This document shows positions 48,021-50,790 of a DNA stretch of 64,000 nt, piece after piece. Where the stretch lies: the NCBI GenBank assembly GCA_018650845.1, contig JABIFF010000008.1, forward strand, positions 124,001 to 188,000, written 5' to 3'. Positions within the stretch are counted from its first letter, which is position 1, and the number at the start of each line of letters is the position of its first letter. The notes beneath the pieces were generated by a model. The model was not told the DNA's origin, did not search any database, and was given only the letters and a program-made list of their open reading frames with translations. This DNA is from Chloroflexota bacterium. Its GTDB lineage: Bacteria; Chloroflexota; Dehalococcoidia; Lucifugimonadales; Lucifugimonadaceae. The translations under genes were made by a program, and so were the position numbers.

Positions 48021-48635
48021 CTAAACCTTCGGAGCATCCCACGTCGTGACGTGGCTTAGAGTGCCATCGGGGAACGCCGATGTGTACTCGTTCGCCAGCA
48101 TTCCGAGAATTACCGAATTGTGCCTTGCGCCATCATGCGGCCGGCTTTGTCTCAGTGTTCCTTCGTGCTGGAAGCCAATGTGTTCGAACATCGCACGTGC
48201 AGCCGTGTTGTATTCAGGAACGTCGACCCATGCTCGGTGAAGACCTAGATGCTCGAAAATGTGTTCAAGCATGGCGATAACACCTGAAGTGCCGTAGCCA
48301 TGGTGCCACAGGGCTTTTTGGCCGATTAGCACTGAAATTTGGGCATCGCCTAAGGCTTCATCGATCGAAAGTTGACCTTCGCCGATATGTTCGCCTGAGA
48401 GCGTGTAAACAGAGAAGATGTCACGATGGGGTTCGTGATGAGGGTCGTGGAACACTTCGTCCCAAGCCTCTTCGGAAGCACCGATCATGTCTTTGGGTTC
48501 GTAACCCAAGTGGGCGGCATCACCATAGGTGTATCTGCCGAACCAAGCATCTGAAACTTGGGGATCGTCTAACCAATCGGCAAGGCGTTGAACGTCATCA
48601 CGGGTAACCGGGCGCAACTCAACTAATGAGGGCAC
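48021..48635 (-). CDS. GNAT-family acetyltransferase
   Basis: This 204-residue protein starts at the GTG at 48635, with AGGAGG 5 bases upstream. It has the RimJ/RimL-like GNAT pattern: LRPVTRDDVQRLADWLDD, GEGQLSIDEALGDAQISVLIGQKALWHHGYGTSGVIAML (acetyl-CoA loop), and YNTAARAMFEHIGFQHEGTLRQ. It transfers an acetyl group to a protein N-terminus or a small amine. The substrate is not readable. It is convergent with thrC, with stops only a few bases apart. Confidence 0.85.
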   Translation of the reverse strand: MPSLVELRPVTRDDVQRLADWLDDPQVSDAWFGRYTYGDAAHLGYEPKDMIGASEEAWDEVFHDPHHEPHRDIFSVYTLSGEHIGEGQLSIDEALGDAQISVLIGQKALWHHGYGTSGVIAMLEHIFEHLGLHRAWVDVPEYNTAARAMFEHIGFQHEGTLRQSRPHDGARHNSVILGMLANEYTSAFPDGTLSHVTTWDAPKV

Positions 48636-48898
48636 ATCGTCCTCCTTAAATCTGTTGTGTCAGGGCCACGTAATGTGCGATCAAAACGGCGTACCGCTGA
48701 GAGCGACATCTGGGCCAGAGCCGCAGTATACCGGAACTCAGTTTGAAGACTTCGCCGTGCGAGATGCACCGAGTGTTTTCTTACAGGGAAGGTGGAATTT
48801 GCATTAGCTGATACGATGCTCCCATTCAGTTGGTACACCGTTCAATAGTGGATGGGGCTGGCCAGCTATTTGAATATTAGATTGAATTCGAGGTAGAT

Positions 48899-49183
48899 AT
48901 GTCTGATCACTGGAAGATGGAAGCCGAGATTGAATACTGTGTGCCATGTGGCTACGCAAACCTTGCAGCGAACATGGTTAGCGAGTTATTTCAGGCAGCA
49001 GGACCAGCGCTTGCAATCTCACTCAAGCCGGGCCACAGCGGTGCTTTCAAAGTAACTGTTGATGGTCGAGTTCTCTGGGACAAGAAGGACCAGGGGCGAT
49101 CGCCACACATCATGGAAGTAAAAGAGCTGAAGGCTACAGTTGCCAACATGCTCGAATCTGGCGCTGTTATTCAGTCCAACTAA
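48899..49183 (+). CDS. Rdx/SelW-like protein, Cys form
   Basis: This 94-residue protein begins with AEIEYCVPCGYANLA: a thioredoxin-like strand with a CxxC (C14, C17). The rest of the SelW/SelT/SelH-type domain (FKVTVDGRVLWDKKDQGRSP, VKELKATVANML) is complete. GAGG lies upstream of the ATG. Proteins of this family are small redox proteins; their partner is unknown. The next gene is a paralog with TGA in place of the second Cys. The two are 59 bases apart, so they may be co-transcribed. A short hairpin lies at 49200-49222. Confidence 0.85.
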   Translation: MSDHWKMEAEIEYCVPCGYANLAANMVSELFQAAGPALAISLKPGHSGAFKVTVDGRVLWDKKDQGRSPHIMEVKELKATVANMLESGAVIQSN

Positions 49184-49242
49184 GTTCGGTTGAATTCGTC
49201 TATCGGTGGGAATCACCAATAGGCAGAGTCTTGGAGATAGAT

Positions 49243-49518
49243 ATGGCCGATGTACCGGCGAAAGTTCACGCTGAGATCGAATACTGCGTTCCCTGAAGCT
49301 ACCACTCTGTGGCTTTCTGGATGGGAAGCGAACTTGCTGCGGCCGGTGGATCGCAGATTGCGGTGACGTTAACTCCCGGTCAGGCCGGTGTGTTTAGGTT
49401 CACTTTGAACGGTGAAGTAGCCTTCGACAAGGGTGAAGTTGGGCGTTACCCGACATTGCCTGATGCGAAAGAAGTGAAGGCTAAGGTCATCAACATGATC
49501 GAAGCCGTAACTGCGTAA
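49243..49518 (+). CDS. Rdx/SelW-like selenoprotein candidate with in-frame TGA
   Basis: The ATG at 49243 has GGAG 7 bases upstream. Read with TGA at 49294-49296 as selenocysteine, the protein has 91 residues: MADVPAKVHAEIEYCVPU, then SYHSVAFWMGSEL. U18 aligns exactly with C17 of the Cys form upstream, giving CxxU for CxxC. The homology continues past the TGA to the end, so the codon is read through or is a very recent mutation. A 6-bp hairpin (GCTTTC/GGAAGC with a TGGATG loop, 49312-49329) starts 15 bases after the TGA. It has a G in the second loop position, as in bacterial SECIS elements. No selA, selB or selC is in the window. Confidence 0.82.
49312..49329 (+). promoter_or_regulatory. Candidate bacterial SECIS hairpin
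   Basis: GCTTTC (49312-49317) pairs with GGAAGC (49324-49329), with one T-G wobble, around a 6-base loop TGGATG. The loop begins 21 bases after the in-frame TGA and has G at its second position. Both features match the general description of SelB-recruiting hairpins. The fold is read by eye only. Confidence 0.5.
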
Positions 49519-49561
49519 CGAACCGACGTTTTTGAGACATCGAGCGTATTAAGAACATGAG

Positions 49562-49594
49562 AACGCCCCTGCAGGCATTGCAGGGGCGTTTTTT
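49562..49594. terminator. Rho-independent terminator after the selenoprotein gene
   Basis: AACGCCCCTGCA (49562-49573) and TGCAGGGGCGTT (49579-49590) form a 12-bp stem with a GGCAT loop, followed by a run of T. It ends the Rdx pair. It is among the strongest terminators in the window. Confidence 0.94.
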
Positions 49595-49695
49595 ATTGTT
49601 CGAAAAAGCTATTCGATGAAGTACCATGATCTAGCTCGAATCCATAGGATTTGGGCTTTAGCCACCTCGTCCGAACGTTCTTCTGGAGTTAGCAC

Positions 49696-50790
49696 GTGAA
49701 AGCCGCAGTCCTTCTTGAATCTAAAAAGCCCATGCCAATCATGGAGCTTGACCAGTCGGAGCCTAAAACCGGCGAAGTGCGAGTGAAGATGTCGGCTGCG
49801 GGCATTTGTGCCTCAGACCACCACGTAATGACGGGCGACAACCCGACACCGATGCCGATTGTTCTCGGTCACGAGGGCGCAGGTGTTATCGACGCTGTAG
49901 GACCCGGTGTTTCGAGCGTAAAAGTGGGCGACCGCTGCGTGCTTTCGTTTGTAGCGAACTGTGGTCACTGTCGATCATGCCGAGAAGGCCTATCGAATAT
50001 TTGTGACACAAATCGTGAGACGGGCACACGTCAGTACGACGGAACGTTCCGGCTTCACACTGACGATGGCACTGAAGTGCACCAGTTTGCAAAGCTGGGC
50101 GTATTTGCTGAATCGATCATTGTTCCTCAGCAGGCTTGCTACCCGATGCCAGATGACGTTCCGATGGATGTCGCTGCGCTGATCGGTTGCTCAGTTACGA
50201 CAGGTGTTGGTGGCGTTATCAACCAGCCTGGCATGCGAGCTGGAATGACTATCGCTGTTATCGGAGCTGGTGGAGTTGGACTGAACGCTCTACAGGGCGC
50301 TCGACTGATGAACGCAGCGAAGGTGATCGCTGTAGATATTTCCGACCACAAGCTCGAATTTGCGTACAAGTTTGGTGCGACAGACGTTATCAACTCTAAA
50401 AACCAGGATCCAATTGCTGCTATTCAGGAATTGACCGATGGCGGAGTTGATTTTGCGTTCGACACGTTCGGTCACAAAATCACCACCGAGCAGGCTTATC
50501 ACTCAACCCGCAAGGGCGGCACGACTGTGGTTGTTGGGCTTGCTCCCGACGGCATGGGGGCCGATATTCCGCTGGTCGAGTTGGTCAGGAATCAGAAGAC
50601 TCTTGTTGGTAGCTATTACGGATCGGCAAGCCCTCACGAAACGTTTGGCAAGCTGCTGGAGTTCTATCGTCAGGGGAAGATCGACGTGGGCGGAATGGTC
50701 ACACGTAAGTACAAACTCGACGAAATTAACGAGGCTTATGCAGCTCTAGAACGTGGCGAAGATGGTCGAGGTGTGATCGTTTTCGATTAG
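49696..50790 (+). CDS. Zinc-dependent alcohol dehydrogenase family protein
   Basis: This 364-residue protein starts at a GTG with GGAG upstream. It has the catalytic zinc ligand C38 and the GHE block (H59, E60). Structural zinc Cys are C89, C92, C95 and C103 (NCGHCRSCREGLSNIC). The cofactor motif is VIGAGGVGLNALQGA. LIGCSVTTGVGGV gives a further catalytic Cys. It resembles class III-type or S-(hydroxymethyl)-type dehydrogenases of the MDR superfamily, but the substrate is uncertain. It oxidises an alcohol with NAD(P). It stands alone between two terminators or promoters. Confidence 0.9.
   Translation: MKAAVLLESKKPMPIMELDQSEPKTGEVRVKMSAAGICASDHHVMTGDNPTPMPIVLGHEGAGVIDAVGPGVSSVKVGDRCVLSFVANCGHCRSCREGLSNICDTNRETGTRQYDGTFRLHTDDGTEVHQFAKLGVFAESIIVPQQACYPMPDDVPMDVAALIGCSVTTGVGGVINQPGMRAGMTIAVIGAGGVGLNALQGARLMNAAKVIAVDISDHKLEFAYKFGATDVINSKNQDPIAAIQELTDGGVDFAFDTFGHKITTEQAYHSTRKGGTTVVVGLAPDGMGADIPLVELVRNQKTLVGSYYGSASPHETFGKLLEFYRQGKIDVGGMVTRKYKLDEINEAYAALERGEDGRGVIVFD

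Follow-up and report, generated by a model that had tools for sequence, protein, structure and literature searches.

The question raised by this locus, which lies in the 64,000-nucleotide stretch of DNA analysed here (the window), is whether a TGA inside the second of two adjoining Rdx genes is read as selenocysteine (Sec), and what it means that the gene just upstream carries cysteine at the same position. Published descriptions of SelW-like selenoproteins go back to at least 2005 (PMC1088965), and the excerpts available of the Sargasso Sea and GOS reports give 48 and 427 SelW-like selenoprotein genes, respectively (PMC1088965; PMC2398784). The family is therefore already known, being among the commonest of marine bacterial selenoproteins, and the Sec gene described here adds one member. 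The features of the pair are:

48899-49183, + strand: Cys paralog (Rdx, CVPC) of 94 residues, an intact open reading frame with a profile match
49233-49236, + strand: GGAG preceding the ATG, the likely ribosome-binding site of the Sec gene
49243-49518, + strand: predicted SelW-like (Rdx) selenoprotein gene of 91 residues, with Sec at 18 (CVPU) and stop codon TAA
49294-49296, + strand: in-frame TGA at codon 18, putatively read as Sec
49559-49593, + strand: terminator-like hairpin followed by a T run, 3′ of the Sec gene

The two genes lie in tandem, 59 bases apart, in a host genome of 2.48 Mb (24 contigs, 87% complete), of which the window is G000:C4:124001-188000. The first-pass annotation had placed the TGA at codon 18 of the second gene, on the second Cys of the upstream CxxC and with homology on either side, and each of these points was borne out, with the TGA at 49294-49296 inside a 91-residue frame, CVPU facing the CVPC of the gene at 48899-49183, and the read-through product matching Pfam Rdx (PF10262) on both sides of the TGA at 52.0 bits (cut-off 22.6). 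Against TIGR02174 (CXXU_selWTH) the Sec gene scores 35.9 bits (cut-off 34.2), the Cys gene scoring 66.8 and 47.4 bits against the same two profiles. It had also been expected that an ORF caller would split or miss the Sec gene, and the sole entry of the plain ORF list in its frame is indeed a 69-amino-acid ORF from GTG 49309. Of the local signals that had been named, the GGAG ahead of the ATG and the terminator past the stop were both located, and of the genus's 16 tandem loci 14 have GGAG ahead of the Sec gene's start codon, the remaining two showing AGG or GGAA. No promoter-like site was found in 48600-49760 and no terminator-like hairpin is listed between the Cys and Sec genes; their co-transcription is putative. 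The intergenic stretch (49184-49242) holds an inverted repeat, while the other 15 folded congeners differ here and no shared intergenic sequence was seen by eye.

A search for selA, selB, selC and selD had been proposed as a check on a Sec reading, and the whole set is present in the host genome. Profile searches found SelA (516.5 bits, cut-off 267.9), SelB (329.8 bits, cut-off 242.25) and SelD (368.3 bits, cut-off 125), and tRNA-Sec with anticodon TCA was found at two contig ends with equal scores, so that it is perhaps one gene at an assembly break. SelD (L053, G000:C21) has one in-frame TGA, in the motif CAGU, and is likely a selenoprotein itself. Across the 76 family genomes SelB scores above cut-off in 55, and by hand count the TGA form of Rdx occurs in 36 of these 55 genomes vs one of the 21 others (Fisher p = 1e-6, not corrected for relatedness). 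The sole genome with TGA-Rdx and SelB below cut-off, G038, is 56% complete and has a SelB-matching piece of 154 bits.

Homologs with Sec or Cys at this site, which the first-pass annotation had suggested looking for, are common in the family. Rdx is present in 59 of the 76 genomes searched and the TGA form in 37, each match spanning the TGA, each matched stretch holding one TGA and no other stop, and the TGA always taking the second position of the CxxU motif. By hand count 28 genomes have both TGA and stop-free forms, nine the TGA form only and 21 the stop-free form only, with one (G074) cut at a contig edge and 17 lacking Rdx, many of the genomes behind these counts being incomplete. Apart from the distant L063, the Sec motifs of 37 genes are CVPU (33), CVTU (three) and CVGU (one), and CVPC is the motif wherever it can be read in a Cys gene. 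A TGC or TGT at 49294-49296 in sequence reads had been named as evidence against Sec; the TGA is shared by many species and is thus not a sequencing error. As far as sequence can tell, none of the three refuting findings named there (no Sec machinery, a Cys codon in the reads, no further Sec homolog) holds. L063 (G046:C4) is a second, distant Rdx selenoprotein (CAQU) in one congener, and groups in the gene tree with CAQU/CREU-type forms from other families of the class. A further scan of named genomes, whose pattern had Cys at the site and was able to find Cys forms only, gave 13 matched stretches, of which three (L116, L117 and L118) passed tblastn, L117 and L118 on tblastn only and L116, the MAG Chloroflexi bacterium casp150-mb.221 with Cys at the site, also with the Rdx profile (55.4 bits).

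Both parts of the Sec gene are under purifying constraint, with mean dN 0.069 and dS 1.11 before the TGA and 0.143 and 1.60 after it (16 congeners, saturated pairs left out). Where a congener has both genes (16 cases), the Sec copies average 0.799 in amino-acid identity and the Cys copies 0.948, and in three of 19 congeners the Sec copy is a remnant or was not found. In two of the three (L059 and L071, in G043 and G055) the remnant lies beside an intact Cys copy and SelB is retained, while the third, G047 of the same genus (84% complete), yielded no Rdx. Evolving faster and being a remnant or not found in these three, the Sec copy may be the less important of the two. It is barely credible that the Sec gene is a decaying copy of the Cys gene, with the TGA simply ending translation, or that the TGA is a sequencing error. 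The remnants, the congener where no Rdx was found and the faster evolution of the Sec copy would suit such a reading, but the TGA recurs at this codon in 37 of 76 genomes with no other stop in the matched stretch, dN/dS is low on either side of it and the Sec machinery is present, such that for the intact copies conservation across genera refutes it.

The signal that would direct Sec insertion was sought downstream of the TGA:

49312-49329, + strand: predicted bacterial SECIS hairpin with loop GGAU at 49319-49322, on comparative evidence

The first-pass annotation had described a hairpin starting 15 bases past the TGA with a G at the second loop position; its location and the loop GGAU stand (15 bases to the stem, 22 to the loop), but the single-sequence minimum-free-energy fold prefers a rival hairpin right after the TGA, and a 55-nt fold of the gene's own sequence is not unusually stable (z -0.74). 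The comparative evidence begins with codons +5 to +12 of the Sec gene (49309-49332; GTG GCT TTC TGG ATG GGA AGC GAA, of which TGG and ATG have no synonyms), where synonymous differences occur in 0 to 0.12 of pairs among the 16 congeners, vs 0.46 to 0.78 for six of the eight counterparts in 18 Cys genes, an Asn/Ser codon giving 0.03 and ATG 0. Coding need alone is insufficient for this freeze. In a fixed-place test over a stretch picked after the folds had been seen (columns 17-37, folded against 400 synonymous shuffles, L063 left out), mean z for the Sec genes was -3.05 in genus g1 (16 genes), -2.24 in g3 (1), -1.56 in g6 (1), -2.55 in g7 (7), -3.78 in g8 (6), -2.11 in g11 (4) and -3.74 in g12 (2), and for the Cys genes -0.14 in g1 (18), -0.75 in g2 (3), 0.78 in g5 (1), -0.71 in g6 (2), -1.00 in g8 (7), -1.24 in g10 (2), 0.21 in g11 (3) and -2.33 in g12 (2). 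In L116, a Cys form, the RNA folds weakly at the SECIS position (-1.8 kcal/mol).

The stem also shows compensating changes between genera. In an alignment of 21 sequences drawn from the 37 Sec sequences it occurs in two registers one base apart, with 80.3% and 72.8% of cells paired and both-sides changes in 14 and 15 cells vs shuffled means of 4.4 and 5.1, respectively, and in the loop there is no variation at columns 25-27, which hold the Trp codon TGG, or at column 29. A free-place test of hairpin energy against synonymous shuffles left Sec and Cys genes unseparated (mean z -1.08 vs -0.91; 16 genes each) and is consequently not counted as support for a SECIS. RNAalifold gave no consensus structure for the 21 Sec sequences, the stems being in two registers, and Rfam had nothing at the hairpin, whether across the window at the gathering threshold or in 48800-49700 at a relaxed one. 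By comparison among the genes, the traits of a bacterial SECIS, a hairpin downstream of the UGA with a small apical loop and an early G, are found here, and the synonymous freeze, the fixed-place stability and the paired changes between genera identify 49312-49329 as the predicted bacterial SECIS. The hairpin right after the TGA was rejected as the SECIS itself, having 92.9% of cells paired in the 21 Sec genes but no both-sides change, though it may still form a lower part of that element. Among the Cys genes, L075 and L094 of g12, each adjacent to a Sec gene, have a strong hairpin at the SECIS place, possibly a remnant SECIS; with only these two standing out, they are too few to claim remnant SECIS elements in Cys genes generally. 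On the sequence evidence, 49243-49518 is very probably a selenoprotein gene with a bacterial SECIS.

It is very unlikely that the UGA is instead decoded by other means (by a near-cognate tRNA, or as Cys or Trp), or that it is a regulatory stop between a short leader peptide and an ORF starting at GTG 49309. The 69-amino-acid GTG-started ORF does exist and the hairpin directly after the TGA can be formed in most of the 21 Sec genes. However, UGA is also the apparent stop codon of 11 of 36 of the same genes (the count covering all 37 Sec genes except L083), so that it is not a general sense codon but one codon with two context-set meanings within one gene. The frame ahead of the TGA is moreover conserved and homologous, the TGA-proximal hairpin lacks covariation, and a separate ORF would be missing both the CxxC and the first strand of the fold.

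The age of the pair was approached with a gene tree of 84 rows with the Sec/Cys site masked, comprising 40 family rows of 81 matches and 44 others; the 40 class-level stretches had been hand-picked among the matches listed and are mostly TGA rows, and L083, L109 and L115 were left out. A Cys clade (96/89) unites 21 rows, 20 from the family and one from a second family in the same order, and a Sec clade (84/92) takes in the family's 19 Sec rows; the two clades are sisters (82/77) and together with L116 make up one group (100/96). That L116, a Chloroflexi MAG, joins the family's proteins suggests the same phylum for the uncultured host, for which SAR202 is a tentative guess. In an earlier family-only tree, which labels L115 as Cys though a contig edge truncates it and its motif is missing, 34 Cys rows form one clade (95/96), the placement of five others (g11 and g12) outside it being unsettled, and L063 is a long branch. 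Because the copies cluster by form across genera, the Sec gene did not arise by recent tandem duplication of its Cys neighbour, and the duplication most likely predates the family. Outside the 100/96 group 32 of 43 rows, chosen among the matches listed, are Sec forms, so that the tree leans to Sec as the older state, although the choice of rows is biased towards Sec and the rooting is uncertain; an ancestral Sec form is also suggested for SelW-like proteins in the excerpt of PMC1794560. In another family of the class (f48 g114; L120 and L121 in G338 and G179) the Cys copy precedes the Sec copy and is placed within an otherwise Sec group (96/94; nine Sec, two Cys), and this tandem is probably an independent case. 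Elsewhere a Sec Rdx gene (L122, G438:C10) adjoins a paralog with YSLSD and no CxxC, perhaps a non-redox Rdx protein.

The pair occupies a defined chromosomal slot, in which Rdx is flanked upstream by a GNAT-like gene on the opposite strand and downstream by an alcohol dehydrogenase-like gene:

48021-48635, - strand: GNAT-type acetyltransferase-like gene with weak family matches only, the conserved upstream flank of the Rdx slot
49696-50790, + strand: zinc alcohol dehydrogenase-like gene, the conserved downstream flank in most genera

This slot was surveyed at 60 loci in 49 genomes; the other ten of the 59 that have Rdx are Cys-only. Where at least one flank was seen, the slot holds Cys-Sec in 16 loci (g1), Cys with a Sec remnant in two (g1), Sec-Cys in two (g12), Sec alone in 11 (one in g3, seven in g7, three in g11) and Cys alone in 15 (three in g2, one in g5, two in g6, seven in g8, two in g10), with one further g10 Cys copy containing unread bases. 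The downstream flank is nuoA instead in g10 and one g6 genome, and in longer stretches from six g8 genomes the Cys gene is enclosed by both flanks. For nine Sec genes (including the distant Rdx selenoprotein of G046), three Cys genes and one cut gene the fetched stretch showed neither flank. With the same flanks around Cys, Sec or both, either form can fill the slot, and the value of the locus for following Cys/Sec exchange, to which the first-pass annotation had pointed, is greater than it had supposed. Gain, coexistence and loss of Sec at one active site can be traced at a fixed place in the genome, since the syntenic slot carries Cys, Sec, both or Sec remnants. This mosaic is the interesting part, the Sec gene itself joining a well-known family and having been missed by ORF calling.

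The predicted structure agrees with the family assignment. A model of the Sec gene product with Cys replacing Sec (pLDDT 86.7) has a strand at 8-15 and a helix at 21-38 with CVPU at 15-18, placing the CxxU between the first strand and first helix of a thioredoxin-like fold as in the Rdx family, and the top structure matches are SelW-related bacterial proteins followed by mouse SelW (TM 0.75). Taking the lines of evidence together, we have high confidence that UGA 18 is read as Sec through the hairpin and SelA, SelB, SelD and tRNA-Sec, and that the Cys twin stems from an old duplication and would have an overlapping redox role. SelB carrying Sec-tRNA would bind the hairpin loop and put Sec into the CxxU, UGA codons without such a hairpin terminating translation. 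The upstream gene would supply the Cys version (CxxC) on the same fold, both genes deriving from one duplication predating the family, and in each protein the Cys-Sec or Cys-Cys pair would, from knowledge of the family, exchange with a target. The SelB binding, the Sec insertion, the redox activity and the functional overlap are all putative. Sec reacts faster yet needs selenium, while Cys always works. The two would be largely interchangeable redox proteins, one of them selenium-dependent, and their overlapping thiol/selenol work would let lineages keep one, the other or both; the coexistence and mutual replacement of the two forms fit such an overlap.

It is possible, but unlikely, that the Cys and Sec proteins instead form a specialised couple with distinct functions, such as one reducing the other, and are not interchangeable. 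The tandem is kept in 16 of 19 congeners with the Cys copy under very strong constraint, and within one genome the two copies share an identity of only 0.50 over the part compared, as would suit such a division of labour. Against this, the nine Sec-only and 21 Cys-only genomes, though partly incomplete, suggest that neither form needs the other, and either form occupies the same slot. Extending the reading of overlapping function, we offer tentatively, as somewhat doubtful in its entirety, a scheme in which a Cys/Sec pair, seated in one ancestral slot from before the family diverged, buffers against changes in selenium availability, the Cys copy guaranteeing the function and the Sec copy boosting it, with each lineage settling on one of the two forms or retaining both, and at least one further family of the class having made such a tandem independently.

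The Sec gene resembles the bacterial SelW-like selenoproteins described in the excerpts of earlier surveys in family, in its CxxU with Sec at the second Cys and in a bacterial SECIS with G in the apical loop, but differs in the adjoining Cys paralog, none being reported in those excerpts (PMC1088965; PMC2398784). The GOS excerpt does describe reads with two neighbouring selenoprotein genes, ten being Prx/SelW (PMC2398784). According to the excerpt of PMC1794560, Cys homologs of SelW-like proteins are absent or very rare in organisms that contain Sec, unlike here, where 28 of 76 family genomes have both Rdx forms. Literature searches for a SelW-like selenoprotein in tandem, for SAR202 with selenoprotein and for Methanococcus Sec/Cys isogenes found no paper, though a printed report of the pair is still possible. 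Vertebrate SelW2/Rdx12 belongs to the same family as the bacterial pair, and the excerpt of PMC3316567 proposes that SelW2 was duplicated, one copy becoming the Cys form Rdx12 (MIEN1) and the Sec form later being lost, with zebrafish having a SelW2 tandem pair in which both are Sec (PMC3316567). Unlike SelW2/Rdx12, the bacterial Cys and Sec forms remain side by side, each being absent in some lineages. The vertebrate SECIS is of the eukaryotic type and located in the 3′ UTR. Methanococcus hydrogenases, with genes for selenium-dependent and selenium-free isoenzymes, likewise provide Sec and Cys versions of one protein in one cell, as does the Rdx pair, but unlike the Rdx pair they are encoded in operons of large metal enzymes under known selenium control.
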